From Kocuria sp. TGY1127_2 (lineage in GTDB: Bacteria; Actinomycetota; Actinomycetes; Actinomycetales; Micrococcaceae): a DNA stretch of 64,000 nt. The position numbers and the translations under genes were made by a program. Within the stretch, counting starts at the first letter, position 1. Every line of letters begins with the position of its first letter. The stretch is from positions 1,426,001-1,490,000 of the forward strand of contig NZ_AP022834.1 of NCBI RefSeq assembly GCF_013394385.1, read 5' to 3'. Positions 1,635 through 24,522 of the stretch are shown here, piece after piece. Below the pieces are notes generated by a model. The model was not told the origin of the DNA. It ran no database searches and worked only from the letters and a program-made list of their open reading frames with translations.

Positions 1635-2024
1635 TGGTTTGGCGCAAGCATTACCACACTTGTAAACGCAAGTACGGTGCGAGCGACCAGAGGTGAAGTC
1701 GAGAAGGGCCAGTAGTTTACGGCCTTGAGGAGCCAAATTTTCTCCTGTGTGCGATGGATCGGTTAGGCGGACGTGGCACATGCCATAGTTTGAACCTAGG
1801 CGTCTTGGATGACTCCGAACCTGCCGCGCCGTAAAGGGGGTGGCAACGCGAGGTTAACTTGTCCGGGGCGGAAGAGAGTTCCCCGTCTCACGGTGACCAA
1901 GTGGCTGCACAGACACCGCTGTCCCGTAGGATGGAAAGGATGCGTGATTGAGCACCAGGCACGTCGGGAACCAACGACCCGGTCTCACGCTCCGCCGAAT
2001 AGTTTGAAAGGCTCTTGCACTCCA
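1635..2024. other. Intergenic region between divergent phoX-like and ABC-F genes
   Basis: This 390-bp region lies between divergently transcribed genes and must hold both promoters. An open frame continues upstream of the ABC-F gene to an ATG at 1809, but its extra 72 residues do not resemble the family and I do not treat them as coding. TAGGAT at 1927-1932 is a possible -10 for the ABC-F gene. I see no RNA gene or convincing operator. Confidence 0.5.
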
Positions 2025-3623
2025 TTGATTACCGTTTCCAACCTTGAACTGCGCGCCGGCGCCCGTCTTCTCATGGACGAGGTGAATTTCCGTGTGAACA
2101 AAGGCGACAAAATTGGTCTGGTCGGGCGCAATGGTGCAGGCAAGACAACCATGACCAAGGTTTTGGCGGGCCAGGACCTGCCCGCGAGCGGGGAAGTGTC
2201 ACGGAGCGGGAGCATCGGATACCTCCCTCAGGACCCCAAGGTCGAGGACATGGAGCAGACCGCCCAGGACCGAATCTTCTCGGCTCGCGGTCTCGCCGGC
2301 GTCGTCGGACGGATGCGTCAGGCGCAAGAGCAGATGGCTTCGGAAGACCCCGCCGTGCAGGCCAAGGGTATGAGGTCCTATGACCGCTTGGAAGCTGAGT
2401 TCATCTCTGGTGGAGGTTATGCTGCCGAGTCGGAAGCTGCCACCATCACGCACAACCTCAACTTGCCGGACCGGCTTTTGGCTCAGCCTCTCCGTACGCT
2501 CTCCGGTGGCCAACGACGCCGCGTCGAGCTTGCCAGGATTCTGTTCTCGGATGCTGACACGATGCTGCTGGACGAGCCGACCAACCACTTGGACGCGGAT
2601 TCGGTCGAGTGGCTCCGCGAATTCCTCCGCAGCTATCAAGGCGGTCTACTGGTCATCAGCCACGACGTCGAGCTCATGGAGCTCGTGGTCAACAAGGTTC
2701 TCTACCTGGACGCCATGCGATGCGTCGTCGATGTCTACAACATGGACTGGAAGCACTACCTGCAGCAGCGTGAGCAGGATGAACACCGCCGTAAGCGTGA
2801 GCGGGCCAACGCCGAGAAAAAAGCCAACTCCTTGATGGACCAGGCCAACAAGATGCGTGCCAAGGCGACCAAAGCCGTAGCGGCACAGCAGATGATCAAG
2901 CGAGCCGAGCGCCTCATGCGTGAAGTCGAGCCCGAGCAGGCCCATGACAAGGTTGCGGCCATTCGATTCCCAGCACCGGCACCGTGCGGCAAAACCCCTC
3001 TGCGAGCGAGCGGGCTTTCGAAGTCATACGGCTCGCTGGAGATCTTCACCGACGTGGATCTGGCGATCGATCGCGGTTCGCGCGTGGTGGTGCTGGGCCT
3101 CAACGGCGCGGGCAAGACAACCCTGCTGCGTATGCTGGCCGGGGTCACCGATTCGGACTCGGGCCAGGTCGAGCCGGGGCACGGGCTGAAACTGGGATAT
3201 TTTGCGCAGGAGCACGACACCCTCGACGGCGATCGATCCGTCCTGGAGAACATGCGATCCGCCGCTCCGGATCTTCAGGACACCCAGGTCAGAACCATTC
3301 TGGGGTCGTTCCTTTTCCAAGGCGACGACGTCAACAAGCCGGCCAGCGTACTGTCCGGCGGCGAAAAAACGAGGCTGGCGTTGGCTACCCTGGTCGCCTC
3401 GAGCGCGAATGTTCTCTTGCTCGACGAGCCGACGAACAACCTCGACCCAGCCAGCCGCGAGGAAATCCTCAATGCGCTCAAGAATTATGAGGGCGCGATC
3501 GTCATGGTCTCGCACGATGAAGGCGCGGTCGAGGCTCTGGACCCGGAACGGGTTCTGATGCTTCCGGACGGCATCGAAGATCATTGGAACAAGGACTATC
3601 AGGACCTGATTACGCTCGCATGA
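2025..3623 (+). CDS. ABC-F family ATPase (ribosome-associated type)
   Basis: A 532-residue soluble protein with two ABC ATPase domains and no membrane segments. Domain 1 has Walker A GRNGAGKT (34-41), signature LSGGQ (about 159-163) and Walker B ending LLDEPTNHLD. Domain 2 has GLNGAGKT (358-365), LSGGE and LLDEPTNNLD. The charged helical linker, about residues 240-300 and rich in Lys/Arg, is where ABC-F proteins contact tRNA at the ribosome. Members adjust translation or protect ribosomes from antibiotics; the substrate here cannot be told. The TTG at 2025 is chosen because the conserved N-terminus begins with ITVSNLELRAG immediately after it; GAAAGG lies about 13 bases upstream. A terminator follows the stop. 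Confidence 0.88.
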   Translation: MITVSNLELRAGARLLMDEVNFRVNKGDKIGLVGRNGAGKTTMTKVLAGQDLPASGEVSRSGSIGYLPQDPKVEDMEQTAQDRIFSARGLAGVVGRMRQAQEQMASEDPAVQAKGMRSYDRLEAEFISGGGYAAESEAATITHNLNLPDRLLAQPLRTLSGGQRRRVELARILFSDADTMLLDEPTNHLDADSVEWLREFLRSYQGGLLVISHDVELMELVVNKVLYLDAMRCVVDVYNMDWKHYLQQREQDEHRRKRERANAEKKANSLMDQANKMRAKATKAVAAQQMIKRAERLMREVEPEQAHDKVAAIRFPAPAPCGKTPLRASGLSKSYGSLEIFTDVDLAIDRGSRVVVLGLNGAGKTTLLRMLAGVTDSDSGQVEPGHGLKLGYFAQEHDTLDGDRSVLENMRSAAPDLQDTQVRTILGSFLFQGDDVNKPASVLSGGEKTRLALATLVASSANVLLLDEPTNNLDPASREEILNALKNYEGAIVMVSHDEGAVEALDPERVLMLPDGIEDHWNKDYQDLITLA

Positions 3624-3643: not shown

Positions 3644-3678
3644 AGAGCGCGGAACAACCGTTCCGGGCTCTTTCTATT
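3644..3678 (+). terminator. Rho-independent terminator after the ABC-F gene
   Basis: Arms 3644-3655 and 3660-3671 form a 12-bp stem with one mismatch around the loop AACC, followed by a T-rich tail. It sits between the convergent ABC-F and SURF1 genes and slightly overlaps the SURF1 3' end. Confidence 0.75.
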
Positions 3679-4645
3679 TCCGGAAACGCTGCTCCTCAGC
3701 AGCGTCCAGGTAGGCATCTTCCAACTCCTCGTCGGTCACGCGTTTGCGCTTCTTCTGAGGCTTGGGCCGCACAATGGCCTTCATGTGCGACGGCATGTCG
3801 TCCATCATCTCCATTTGGCGCAGGATGATGGACTCGTCGACGTCACCGATGTATCGGCCTTCTTCGTCGTAGAACGTCCCATAGTAGACGTCGAGTTCGG
3901 CGGCCAACTGGGCATCGAGGCGATCGTTCCTGACCTTTTGGCGTGCGCACCAGGCATATGCCACGTAAACCAGGATCGCGAAGGCGTACCACTGCATCGA
4001 ATACGAAAGGTTGGGGCCGGCATCCTGCTCCGGCTCGCTGAGCCGACTCGGCGAAGTAGCGGGTGCTGGATCTTCCGAGGACATGATCCCGTATCCTGAT
4101 TCCGCCATCGGGTAGGACAACTGTTCTCCGAATTTCTTGAGGTTGATCGAGGCGATTTGGCCTTCGGGAGCGTCCTTACCCGTGTCTGCCTCGCCTTCCT
4201 GCAACCGGGCCGTCACATCCACCTCGCCCGCGGGCGGAGGCGGGACAGCGGAAGCCGGTGATGCGTTCGAATCTCCGGCCCCGACCCAGCCACGGTCGAT
4301 GAGTACCGTATGGCCGTCGGTCGTGGTGAATGGTACGAGCACCTCGAAACCTACGCTACCGTCGTGGGGCCGGTTGCGGACGAGTTTCTGGTCTTCGGGG
4401 TGGTAGGTGCCCTTCATGGAAATCGGGGTCCACTGTTTGTCAGAACTGTAGTCAGAGAAATATTTTCCCGCCTCGTCAAAGGACTCGGGCTCAGCGTTGT
4501 AGTTCTGACTGATCCGGCTGTTGCGGTAGTCGAGGGCTTCCTTGCGATCCATTTGCCAGCCCGCAAGGTAAACACAGATCAGGGAGAACAGAATGCACAG
4601 GGCAAACGCACCGATCCATTTGCCGGACAGTAGGAATTTGTACAC
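3674..4645 (-). CDS. SURF1-family cytochrome oxidase assembly protein
   Basis: A 323-residue membrane protein with the SURF1 layout: one N-terminal transmembrane helix (about residues 10-30, ending LAGWQMDRK), a large external domain (about 40-210) and a second helix (about 215-235, SMQWYAFAILVYVAYAW). Sequences such as VLIDRGWVGAGD match the family pattern. SURF1 proteins help build haem-copper oxidases, which fits the ctaCDEF genes later in the window. The C-terminus carries an extra charged tail of about 90 residues, common in actinobacterial members. The GTG start at 4645 has GAGAGAG upstream. Confidence 0.85.
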   Translation of the reverse strand: MYKFLLSGKWIGAFALCILFSLICVYLAGWQMDRKEALDYRNSRISQNYNAEPESFDEAGKYFSDYSSDKQWTPISMKGTYHPEDQKLVRNRPHDGSVGFEVLVPFTTTDGHTVLIDRGWVGAGDSNASPASAVPPPPAGEVDVTARLQEGEADTGKDAPEGQIASINLKKFGEQLSYPMAESGYGIMSSEDPAPATSPSRLSEPEQDAGPNLSYSMQWYAFAILVYVAYAWCARQKVRNDRLDAQLAAELDVYYGTFYDEEGRYIGDVDESIILRQMEMMDDMPSHMKAIVRPKPQKKRKRVTDEELEDAYLDAAEEQRFRK

Positions 4646-4962: not shown

Positions 4963-5421
4963 TCATCTTCCCCGTGAATCGTGACCGGGGCGGTATTCTC
5001 CTTCGATGACTTCGTCCTCGTAGATCGGGGAATCCTCGCTTGCGGGACGTTCACGCGGTGGTTCGGCCGGCTCGTCCCCGGAGGGGGACTCGCGTTCCTT
5101 GGCATAGTCCCTGCCCGGGATTAGCTCCCTAGGAGTCGCGCCCGGTACGTAGGAGACATCCTTGACTTCCGCCCTGTCGTTGCCATTGGCCAAAACCACG
5201 GCAATCCAGGGGAGTACGGCGACGCCGACCACAGCGACCCAGCGTATCCACCCGTCGAAGATCACGGCGATGATGAGGCAGACAATACGCAGGCCCATCT
5301 GAAGCGCGTACCGTTTCATCCGATGATCGATGCCCTCGCTGTGCGGGGCTTGGGCCTCCGTGATGGTGTGGAGGTCCTCCGCTTCTTCTTGAGGGACATG
5401 AGGTTGACCGCGTCGAGCCAT
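4963..5421 (-). CDS. DUF3099-type membrane protein
   Basis: A 152-residue protein. The start at ATG 5421 is preferred over a longer frame because GAGAGGAGGG lies just upstream. Order: polar N-terminus, the sequence HRMKRYALQMGLRIVC leading into one or two hydrophobic helices (about residues 50-90), then an acidic, proline-rich C-terminal tail that is probably disordered. This matches DUF3099, a small actinobacterial membrane family without known function. Confidence 0.75.
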   Translation of the reverse strand: MARRGQPHVPQEEAEDLHTITEAQAPHSEGIDHRMKRYALQMGLRIVCLIIAVIFDGWIRWVAVVGVAVLPWIAVVLANGNDRAEVKDVSYVPGATPRELIPGRDYAKERESPSGDEPAEPPRERPASEDSPIYEDEVIEGEYRPGHDSRGR

Positions 5422-5501
5422 GGTGCGTCCCTCCTCTCGAATTCTGTAGTGCGAAGACCTTTCGACTACCCATTCTTCCACCCCGGTCAAGACTTTGTTG
5501 A

Positions 5502-6371
<870 letters not shown>

Positions 6372-6454
6372 CAACAGGCACACCGGCCTGCCTGCGTGGC
6401 CGAGACGAACGAGAACTGGCAACGGCCTACGTTGCACTCAGACGAAAGGACAAC

Positions 6455-7198
6455 ATGGGAAAGTTGGACAACAAGTCCGCTATCGTAACGGGTTCCTCCC
6501 GCGGGGTCGGAGCGGACACCGCGAAGATCCTCGCCGGCGAGGGAGCTGGCGTCGTCGTGAATTACCGGCAGAAGGCCCCCAGAGCCAACAAAGTAGTGAA
6601 GCAGATCGAGGAAGCCGGTGGGCGCGCCGTCGCCGTCGGTGCGGACATCACGGAACATGCTGACGTGCAGAATCTTGTCGATACGGCCGTGGAATCCTTC
6701 GGTGGTCTCGATGTCCTGGTTCTCAACGCGTCGGGCGGGATGGAAACTGACCTGGGGGAGGACTACGCCCTACGCCTGAACCGGGACGCCCAGTTGGATC
6801 TTCTGCGGACAGCAGCAGAGGCCATGAAGCCAGGATCGCGGGTGGTCTACGTGACTTCCCACCAGGCCCACTTCATCAAGGACGTCGAGACAATGCCCGA
6901 ATACGAAGCAGTAGCTCGCTCGAAGCGCGCCGGTGAAGACGCCCTGACGGCCGAGATTCCGGCTCTCACGGAAAAAGGCATCGAGCTGGTCGTCGTATCC
7001 GGGGACATGATCGAAGGAACCGTTACCGCGACCCTCCTCAATCGGGCGCGCCCGGGAACGCTCGAGGAACGACGCAATGAGGCGGGCAAACTGTACTCCG
7101 TCGAAGAATTCGCTCGGGAGGTTGCCAAGATGGTGACGGCCGACGTCGAAACCGGACACGTCGAACTCGTCGGTGGGGCACAGGGCTTCTTGGACTGA
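6455..7198 (+). CDS. Short-chain reductase, candidate FabL-type enoyl-ACP reductase
   Basis: A 247-residue SDR protein starting at ATG 6455 after GAAAGGA. The cofactor motif is TGSSRGVG, as in Bacillus FabL. The active-site region reads EYEAVARSKRAGE: the Lys that follows Tyr is seven positions on (Tyr-x6-Lys), the spacing known from enoyl-ACP reductases FabI, InhA and FabL, not the Tyr-x3-Lys of FabG. Its position directly behind fabG fits the last reduction step of fatty-acid elongation. Some residues typical of FabL, such as NAASG, appear as NASGG. The generic label SDR oxidoreductase is secure; the enoyl reductase role is inference. Confidence 0.85.
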   Translation: MGKLDNKSAIVTGSSRGVGADTAKILAGEGAGVVVNYRQKAPRANKVVKQIEEAGGRAVAVGADITEHADVQNLVDTAVESFGGLDVLVLNASGGMETDLGEDYALRLNRDAQLDLLRTAAEAMKPGSRVVYVTSHQAHFIKDVETMPEYEAVARSKRAGEDALTAEIPALTEKGIELVVVSGDMIEGTVTATLLNRARPGTLEERRNEAGKLYSVEEFAREVAKMVTADVETGHVELVGGAQGFLD

Positions 7199-7281: not shown

Positions 7282-8229
7282 CTAGAGATTCACGAAATGA
7301 CGAACGGCGTCGAGCCGACGGATGTTGATCTGCGCGTCGGCATCCTGGCGCAAAGCTTCTTTCGCGTTGAACGCAACGCCGAGGCCGGCCGCGTCGAGCA
7401 TCAGACGGTCATTGGCTCCGTCACCCACGGCAATCACGTTGTTGGTTTTCACTCCGCACGACTTGGCCCATTCTTTGAGCGAATGCTGTTTGACGTGCGC
7501 GTCGACGACGGTGCCAAGGCAGCTTCCCGTGAGCTGCTCGTTCTCGATCTCCAGCCGGTTCGCCCGGGCGAATTCGAGGTCCAGCTGGCGGGCAATAGGC
7601 TCCAAAACCTGGATGAACCCACCCGAGACGACGCAGACCGGGAAGTCTCGCGCGTGAAAAGCGTCGACGAGCTGTTTGGCACCCGGCGTGAGTGTCAGCG
7701 AGCGAGAGACGGCAGCCAGAACCGAGACTGGCTGACCCTTCAGCGTGGATACTCGGTGTTCCAAGGATTGAGCGAAGTCCAGTTCTCCCCTCATTGCTCG
7801 TTCGGTGACTTCGGCCACCTCGTGGCGGACACCGGCCCGGGCGGCCAACTCGTCGATGGCTTCCTGACAGAGCAGTGTGGAGTCCGCGTCAAGGATCAGC
7901 ATGAGCTTTTCGGCACGTGACAGAGCAGGATCCACGACGTTGATGTCGTAGCCGGGGACTGCCTGCTGCAGGGAATCTGGCCTGAGAGTTTTGCGCAGCT
8001 CCGTGATGTCATTTTTCCACGCGACGTCGACCAGCACCGTGGTGTACATGTGACCGCCAGCCTGGGGGAGGCGCTTGCCGTCCCTGGGTATCTCCGACAG
8101 CGCGGCAGATGTCAGGGGAAGGGCGTTCTTGATGGTGGCGCCGGTGCGCTCAATGAAAGCGTACAGCGACCGGTGATCATCGGTCTGGACATGCTGTGTG
8201 GTCGCGACGACGCGGAGAGTTTTGCTCAT
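7282..8229 (-). CDS. serB: Phosphoserine phosphatase SerB
   Basis: A 315-residue HAD-family protein catalysing the last step of serine synthesis. The catalytic nucleophile motif is LDADSTLL, followed by CVVSGG and GDGANDRLML, the three HAD motifs in order. The N-terminal 110 residues form a regulatory region as in longer SerB proteins. Several starts are possible (ATG at 8241, 8238, 8229). I chose 8229 because a -10-like TATGAT ends seven bases before it, consistent with a very short or absent leader, while the upstream ATGs lie inside that hexamer. Confidence 0.9.
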   Translation of the reverse strand: MSKTLRVVATTQHVQTDDHRSLYAFIERTGATIKNALPLTSAALSEIPRDGKRLPQAGGHMYTTVLVDVAWKNDITELRKTLRPDSLQQAVPGYDINVVDPALSRAEKLMLILDADSTLLCQEAIDELAARAGVRHEVAEVTERAMRGELDFAQSLEHRVSTLKGQPVSVLAAVSRSLTLTPGAKQLVDAFHARDFPVCVVSGGFIQVLEPIARQLDLEFARANRLEIENEQLTGSCLGTVVDAHVKQHSLKEWAKSCGVKTNNVIAVGDGANDRLMLDAAGLGVAFNAKEALRQDADAQINIRRLDAVRHFVNL

Positions 8230-23172: not shown

Positions 23173-24522
23173 ATGATGAAGGATTCATACGCACAGATCG
23201 TGAACTCGTCCGTGGGCAAGAAAGTGGCAGGGGCGTTGGGTCTGCCTCAGCCGGTGGAGCTTCGACGCTACGAGCCGCACCAGGACTTGCTGAAAGACCG
23301 CAAAGTTCTTGTCGTTGGAGGTCAGAGCGTCGATGGGTTGGCCGACAAATTGCTCAATTGGGGCTTGGAGGTTCGCCGACATCCGGAAACGAACACCCGT
23401 TACGGTGCGATCATCGCTGATTTCACCGAGGCAGAGAAGCCTGGTGACCTACAAAAAGGTGCCCTGACGGTCGGCGCTGCCTTGCGAAGCCTCGGCAGTT
23501 CGGGCCGCGTGATCGTGCTCGGTCGATCGACGGAAGGCATCGAGTCCCCGAACGCTGCGGAGATCACTGCAACTCAAGCGGGCGTGGTCGGGTTCATGCG
23601 CTCCTTGGCTCACGAGATGCGCAAGGGCGCGACGTGCAATCAGCTGAATCTCTCGCCGGAGCTCAGGCCCGATGACGAGAGCGTCGAGGGGCCACTTCGA
23701 TTTCTCCTCTCGGCGCGTTCGGCCTACGTCAGTGGTCAACCTGTGAACGTTGAGCCCGCGAAGCCACATACGGTCGACCCCGAAACTCCGGTCAGTGGAC
23801 AGGTCGCCGTGGTCACGGGCGCGGCTCGCGGCATCGGCGAGGCGATCGTGCGTCGACTCCACGATGACGGTGCAAGCATTATCCTGGTCGACGTCCCGGC
23901 CGCGGGGGAGGCGCTGTCCAGAGTCGCCAACAGCGTTGGGGGACTGGCGCTCCAGCTGGATATTACCCAGGACGATGCCGGTGCAAGGATCGCGGAAGCC
24001 GCCAAGAAGCACTTCGGTCGCCTCGACATCGTGATTCATAACGCAGGGATCACCCGCGACAAGATGCTGGCCAATATGGACGAAGCGAAATGGGGATCAG
24101 TCTTGACCGTCAATCTGGCCGCCCAGCTGGCCATGAACCGTCAACTGCTGGACTCGGGCGCCTTGGGGCCCAATCCGCGCGTCGTGTCCTTGGCATCGAC
24201 GAGCGGCATCGCAGGCAACCGGGGGCAGACCAACTACGGGGCATCCAAAGCTGGAATCATTGGCATGGTCTCTGCTCTGGCAGTCGATTTTGCCCAGGCT
24301 GGCGGCACGATCAATGCCGTCGCACCCGGTTTCATCGAAACCGAGATGACCAAGGCGATGCCCACTGTGACCCGTGAAGTTGCTCGGAGGCTCAATTCGA
24401 TGCAACAGGGCGGAAAGCCCGAAGACGTAGCCCAGGCGGTTGGTTTTCTGGCGTCGAATGCTGCGGCCGGCATCAACGGGCAGACTCTGCGCGTCTGCGG
24501 ACAGTCCATGGTGGGTGCGTAA
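23173..24522 (+). CDS. Long (FabG4-type) 3-oxoacyl reductase
   Basis: A 449-residue protein, nearly twice the length of ordinary FabG. The C-terminal half is a full SDR reductase (TGAARGIG, IHNAGITRDKML, STSGIAGNRGQTNYGASKAG with Tyr-x3-Lys, APGFIETEMT). The N-terminal half (about 1-210) resembles a degenerate nucleotide-binding domain, with LVVGGQSV in the place of the cofactor motif. This matches the high-molecular-weight FabG4 of mycobacteria, which reduces 3-oxoacyl-CoA using NADH. GAGGAGACAG precedes ATG 23173. It is sandwiched between thiolase and MaoC, and its last base overlaps the next start. Confidence 0.9.
   Translation: MMKDSYAQIVNSSVGKKVAGALGLPQPVELRRYEPHQDLLKDRKVLVVGGQSVDGLADKLLNWGLEVRRHPETNTRYGAIIADFTEAEKPGDLQKGALTVGAALRSLGSSGRVIVLGRSTEGIESPNAAEITATQAGVVGFMRSLAHEMRKGATCNQLNLSPELRPDDESVEGPLRFLLSARSAYVSGQPVNVEPAKPHTVDPETPVSGQVAVVTGAARGIGEAIVRRLHDDGASIILVDVPAAGEALSRVANSVGGLALQLDITQDDAGARIAEAAKKHFGRLDIVIHNAGITRDKMLANMDEAKWGSVLTVNLAAQLAMNRQLLDSGALGPNPRVVSLASTSGIAGNRGQTNYGASKAGIIGMVSALAVDFAQAGGTINAVAPGFIETEMTKAMPTVTREVARRLNSMQQGGKPEDVAQAVGFLASNAAAGINGQTLRVCGQSMVGA

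Follow-up and report, generated by a model that had tools for sequence, protein, structure and literature searches.

A FabL-sister SDR in the operon position of FabI, candidate enoyl-ACP reductase of Kocuria and related Actinomycetota

Introduction

Enoyl-ACP reductase (ENR) is an essential enzyme that catalyses the last step of fatty-acid synthesis and is the target of isoniazid, triclosan, and the newer FabI drugs. Several SDR proteins other than the classical FabI serve in this step. One of them is FabL, a second ENR beside FabI, for which Asn-Ser-Tyr-x6-Lys has been given as the active-site pattern (review PMC9260719). FabL2, which is epsilonproteobacterial and 7-alpha-HSDH-like, and FabI2, which has a Tyr-x7-Lys spacing, are further alternatives of this kind (Khan et al. 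2018, 2019; PMC9260719). The PRK07806 protein described here resembles them in being a candidate SDR-type ENR beyond the classical FabI but is neither of the two. The soil-metagenome ‘FabG-like’ ENRs pD-1-7 and pAM1-4 are weakly FabL-like SDRs which, as in PRK07806, have Val in place of FabG Tyr151. They complement an E. coli fabI(ts) strain but not a fabG(ts) one (Khan et al. 2016; PMC5006077), so that SDRs with this replacement can be ENRs. Compared by description only, they differ from PRK07806 in that they reportedly do not have the Asn of FabL and occur most often in Streptomyces (PMC5006077). Some gene in Arthrobacter sp. H-02-3 and in Kocuria indica DP-K7 carries the PATRIC label ‘FabL-like’ (PMC6978705, PMC7090119), a k-mer pipeline label in a gene list that leaves the gene unspecified and says nothing on FabI loss or function. 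The literature that we searched, most subscription journals being outside its reach, contained no mention of PRK07806, nor did it say which ENR is used by genera of the Kocuria, Rothia, and Arthrobacter type.

The gene behind fabG and its active-site motifs

The window, that is, the whole stretch of 64,000 nucleotides that we analysed, comes from a Kocuria strain whose nearest public genome is that of Kocuria sp. 36 (99% protein identity), its other relatives belonging to Rothia, Kocuria, and Arthrobacter. The host is therefore a member of the Micrococcaceae of the Kocuria/Rothia type, and a mycobacterial origin was rejected; mycobacteria had entered the sequence-only reading as a point of comparison. 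An intact PRK07806 open reading frame (6455-7198, +) begins 83 bp downstream of fabG (5625-6371), and a scan of the gene pair for promoters and terminators yielded nothing above chance. The gene and its main signals are the following:

6445-6450, + strand: AAAGGA, probable ribosome-binding site just 5' of the PRK07806 ATG (sequence)
6455-7198, + strand: PRK07806 (NF005868) gene, 247 aa, FabL-sister SDR and candidate sole enoyl-ACP reductase (ORF, profile score, FabI exclusion, tree)
6488-6511, + strand: TGSSRGVG dinucleotide-binding motif, residues 12-19 (T12-G17 and G19 invariant; identical to TGSSRGVG of B. subtilis FabL)
6779-6781, + strand: Asn109, in the SDR/FabL catalytic Asn column (invariant in 28 members; Asn in B. 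subtilis FabL, Arg in actinobacterial FabI)
6857-6859, + strand: Ser135, in the SDR/FabL catalytic Ser column and first residue of the family-specific SHQAHF block (invariant in 28 members; Ser in B. subtilis FabL)
6902-6904, + strand: Tyr150, proposed catalytic Tyr of Tyr-x6-Lys (invariant; same column as FabL Tyr151 and the FabI Tyr)
6911-6913, + strand: Val153, at the classical-SDR catalytic Tyr column (Val also in B. subtilis FabL, Tyr in the adjoining fabG)
6923-6925, + strand: Lys157, catalytic Lys (invariant; same column as FabL Lys158)

A sequence-only reading of the window had singled out this gene for its TGSSRGVG motif and for a Tyr-x6-Lys active site within EYEAVARSKR, and both observations are correct: the former occupies residues 12-19 and the latter is formed by Tyr150 and Lys157. 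The invariant positions (T12-G17, G19, N109, S135, Y150, V153, and K157) are shared by 28 PRK07806 members, aligned down to 57% identity, that come from four families of the order, Micrococcaceae and Dermabacteraceae among them. Because of this invariance, and because alignment places Y150 and K157 on Y151 and K158 of B. subtilis FabL, the motifs are not a product of chance. The Tyr-x3-Lys of classical SDR ketoreductases such as FabG is absent from the protein, which has V153 in the Tyr column. Tyr-x6-Lys without Tyr-x3-Lys is found in two of the 23 SDR frames detected in the genome, the PRK07806 protein and a second SDR, L004, considered below.

Relationship to FabL

The protein scores 406.9 bits over residues 1-246 with the PRK07806 profile (NF005868; curated cut-off 162) and is thus a member of a family that NCBIfam names only ‘SDR family oxidoreductase’. 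Its second-best NCBIfam model is FabL (NF005975), with 99.6 bits against a cut-off of 328 that is not reached, so that it is FabL-like but not FabL. The FabL-type identity proposed from the sequence therefore holds for the motifs and for the sister relation found in the tree, whereas assignment to FabL itself fails at the curated cut-off. In alignment with B. subtilis FabL (3OIC), N109, S135, V153, Y150, and K157 fall on the FabL Asn, Ser, Val, Y151, and K158 columns, and the protein thus has the complete Asn-Ser-Tyr-x6-Lys pattern of FabL without the internal Met of FabI. The two families (FabL represented by the B. subtilis protein, NF005975, and 3OIC/3OID) have in common the SDR fold, TGSSRGVG, this pattern, and Val at the classical Tyr column; they are about 30% identical over their full length. 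PRK07806 differs from FabL by an SHQAHF insertion before the active site, a shortened loop after residue 96, and LNRDAQ and SGDMIEGT blocks.

In a tree that took in PRK07806, the other SDRs of the genome, actinobacterial FabI, fabG, and FabL, PRK07806 grouped with B. subtilis FabL, L004, and L158 in one clade (support 97/93) with a long stem of 1.89. Judged from these sequences, the PRK07806 family is the sister of FabL, closer to it than to FabG, FabI, or other SDRs. The AlphaFold model of the protein (pLDDT 92.9) matches FabL 3OID with a TM of 0.85 and a Z of 28.9, but many other SDRs score alike, so that the match confirms the SDR fold and makes no statement on function. The comparison with actinobacterial FabI and mycobacterial InhA (NF005908, NF040631) gives a mixed picture: PRK07806 shares with them Tyr-x6-Lys, the operon slot after fabG, and a complementary distribution, but has TGSSRGVG in place of the FabI-type glycine loop and keeps the Asn and Ser that are absent from FabI.

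Operon position and neighbourhood

The genes around the fabG-PRK07806 pair are:

1809-3623, + strand: ABC-F ATPase gene, conserved left flank (PF00005 twice, PF12848; synteny)
3674-4645, - strand: SURF1-family gene, conserved left flank (PF02104; synteny)
4963-5490, - strand: DUF3099 gene, conserved left flank of the fabG-ENR slot (PF11298; synteny)
5625-6371, + strand: fabG, 3-ketoacyl-ACP reductase (MabA/FabG1-like, classical YxxxK), first gene of the pair (TIGR01830, 298.9 bits, cut-off 297.75)
7282-8229, - strand: serB-like HAD phosphatase, conserved right flank, start uncertain (PF00702/PF12710; synteny)

Genomes with FabI have, whole or in large part, the order ABC-F, SURF1, DUF3099, fabG, FabI, serB. 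In the window this order is kept for ABC-F, SURF1, DUF3099, fabG, and serB, and PRK07806 stands where FabI stands elsewhere, directly behind fabG in the DUF3099-fabG-ENR-serB arrangement. Of 67 Micrococcaceae-type loci, 66 show the same adjacency to fabG, which was not seen in any of 13 loci from Dermabacteraceae. Twelve PRK07806 genomes of Dermabacteraceae (our family f11) and of families f14 and f19 possess the fabG locus without FabI, PRK07806 being encoded elsewhere. Unrelated genes hold the slot after fabG in some genomes of f19 and f11 (L178, 5313-6290, -; L182, 5252-5770, +; L183, 5284-5808, +); by eye, they are an aldo-keto reductase gene and a gene resembling phosphohistidine phosphatase. 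A metagenome-assembled genome labelled Acidobacteria also contains the full Micrococcaceae arrangement fabG-PRK07806-serB, with 74% protein identity, on a contig (L081, JABBNV010000205.1) that is probably a binning contaminant.

Other enoyl reductases and fatty-acid synthesis genes in the genome

Screening of the whole genome with the FabI/InhA profile NF005908 gave a best match of 73.9 bits, against a cut-off of 299; the PRK07806 locus is not among the 17 genome matches to this model at E 0.001, and a FabI protein query had no match in the genome at 1e-25. FabK had no match in a search that covered the Kocuria genome alone, no FAS-I was found in the genome, and FabV (PF12241) was likewise unmatched there in a search run without a positive control. 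This screen for fabI, inhA, fabK, and fabV was the check that the sequence-only reading had proposed. The FAS-II genes are grouped near 1.295 Mb of the genome contig (C1) in the order fabD-fabH-acpP-fabF, with fabF, acpP, and fabH above their cut-offs and fabD the best match yet below its cut-off.

L004, the second Tyr-x6-Lys SDR, lies on the same contig outside the window (1561823-1562563, -; 1432-2250, -, in its own locus), overlapping the end of an apparent acyl-CoA dehydrogenase gene and with no adjacent fabG. It is the closest FabL relative of the genome: its score with the FabL model is 224 bits (cut-off 328), more than twice that of the PRK07806 protein, and its best PDB match is 3OIC. 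Over 39 genomes, the FabL model produced no match above the cut-off and exceeded 200 bits in two, L004 and one other. An L004-type protein was rejected as a general ENR since it is present in only two of these 39 genomes; in the Kocuria strain it may, from its sequence, be an accessory or second ENR. Two other SDRs deserve mention. L015 has neither Tyr-x3-Lys nor Tyr-x6-Lys at the scanned positions and by eye looks like a relative of 2,4-dienoyl-CoA reductase, and L009 (window positions 23818-24498, +) is a further FabG-like SDR with the classical Tyr-x3-Lys, within a 522-aa open frame that by eye resembles the long 3-oxoacyl-ACP reductase type.

Distribution of PRK07806 and FabI

Among 297 genomes of the order, in all of which both proteins were counted (PRK07806 when above its profile cut-off), 73 have only PRK07806, 175 only FabI, none both, and 49 neither. 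Most of these last (41 of 49) belong to families f3 and f4, in which all three genomes tested have FAS-I, and the remaining eight, from f7, f15, and f20, are assemblies of 67-95% completeness. Fisher's test of the exclusion gives a p of 8e-37, a value that ignores shared ancestry and is not to be taken at face value. The exclusion extends below the family level: Dermabacteraceae have PRK07806 in 21 of 22 genomes and FabI in the other one, and f14 is divided 6 to 6, its genus g24 being split 6 to 5. In the gene tree, the Dermabacteraceae copies are nested among Micrococcaceae (Kocuria/Rothia) copies with a support of 97/97, which suggests a transfer of PRK07806 coupled to FabI loss, and the f14 copies are nested, more weakly (82/87), among those of f19. 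Such nesting points to few independent replacements of FabI by PRK07806, perhaps three to four.

A wider sample of the phylum revealed seven genomes of another order (family f22) that have PRK07806-family proteins beside an InhA-type FabI, the latter 50-55% identical to FabI_G062. Exclusivity consequently holds for the order studied here and does not extend to the family at large. The f22 proteins are 44-53% identical (five compared), retain the Tyr and Lys, and form their own clade in the tree; they may have another role or be second ENRs. Two of them (L198 and L199) have a gap of about 23 residues, lying between the SGD and the C-terminal portion at the expected site of the substrate-binding helix, and are possibly decaying or repurposed copies.

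Proposed function and implications

From the comparison of sequences, the PRK07806 protein is very probably an SDR enoyl reductase of the FabL type, and we hold with considerable confidence that it is the enoyl-ACP reductase that displaced FabI. The proposal that this organism uses a FabL-like enoyl reductase is thus very probably right, because PRK07806 and FabI exclude each other across the 297 genomes and because the slot of FabI behind fabG is filled by PRK07806; the absence of FabI, FabK, and FAS-I and the presence of FAS-II genes in the genome agree with it. PRK07806 would then apparently be the only ENR of its bearers, unlike FabL. We infer its reaction, cofactor, and residue roles as follows. 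The protein would, as FabL does, transfer a hydride from NAD(P)H to enoyl-ACP and in this way reduce its trans-2 double bond. Tyr150 would be placed for stabilisation of the enolate and Lys157 would hold the ribose of the nicotinamide, whereas Asn109 and Ser135 would be retained from the FabG-type SDR active site. In evolutionary terms, PRK07806 would have displaced the ancestral actinobacterial FabI; in Micrococcaceae it stands in the FabI position after fabG, and three other groups encode it at another site and have an empty FabI slot.

Three other readings have to be weighed. The PRK07806 protein might catalyse another step or be a partner, for instance an additional ketoreductase, or an enoyl-CoA reductase of branched-chain or degradation metabolism, that merely tracks lineages without FabI and leaves the ENR to another enzyme. 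The f22 genomes, where relatives of PRK07806 coexist with InhA, lend this some weight, and phylogenetic profiles do measure association and not activity; yet the exclusion is strict across the order, splits within a single genus included, and PRK07806 occupies the very slot of FabI, has the complete FabL active-site pattern and a sister relation to FabL, and has lost the classical ketoreductase Tyr, all of which makes this reading improbable. It is more doubtful still that L004 is the true ENR of the genome and the PRK07806 protein an accessory SDR. The Tyr-x6-Lys of L004, its higher FabL score, and 3OIC as its top PDB match would fit such a role, but a protein so rarely present cannot be the ENR of the remaining PRK07806 genomes, where FAS-II occurs and FabI does not, and its neighbour is the apparent acyl-CoA dehydrogenase gene and not fabG. 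Least probable of all, to the point of being very hard to credit, is an ENR of the FabV, DECR, or another divergent type that escaped the profile searches. FabV was indeed sought without a positive control, and L015 does look like a relative of 2,4-dienoyl-CoA reductase, but an enzyme of this sort leaves both the exclusion of FabI and the takeover of its slot unexplained.

The sequence-only reading had also expected an altered susceptibility to triclosan. As far as resistance is meant, this is not supported: Rothia mucilaginosa, which carries PRK07806 behind fabG (locus L036), did not grow overnight, in either of two strains, at 0.31-5 ug/ml triclosan, that is, at all concentrations tested (PMC5679531). 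Such inhibition argues against high-level resistance and does not indicate which target triclosan hits. Triclosan clones from an oral metagenome carried FabK and not Rothia genes. The susceptibility of PRK07806 bacteria to FabI inhibitors is a matter for measurement and not for prediction from FabI.

Beyond this strain, we consider it likely that PRK07806, as the sister of FabL, constitutes an undescribed ENR class. In this view it has taken the place of FabI more than once in Actinomycetota (in Micrococcaceae, in Dermabacteraceae, and in two more families of the order), partly by horizontal transfer and in one lineage in FabI's own slot, and whole environmental, skin, and oral genera depend on it. 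The interest of PRK07806 comes from the fact that an essential, drug-targeted enzyme has apparently been exchanged in entire genera and has gone unnamed. If true, this would give a function to a family still called ‘SDR family oxidoreductase’ by NCBI and would supply the missing ENR of Arthrobacter, Kocuria, Rothia, Brachybacterium, and their relatives, bacteria of soil, skin, and mouth. It would also provide a natural series of replacements of FabI by a FabL-type enzyme in which the exchange of an essential enzyme could be studied.
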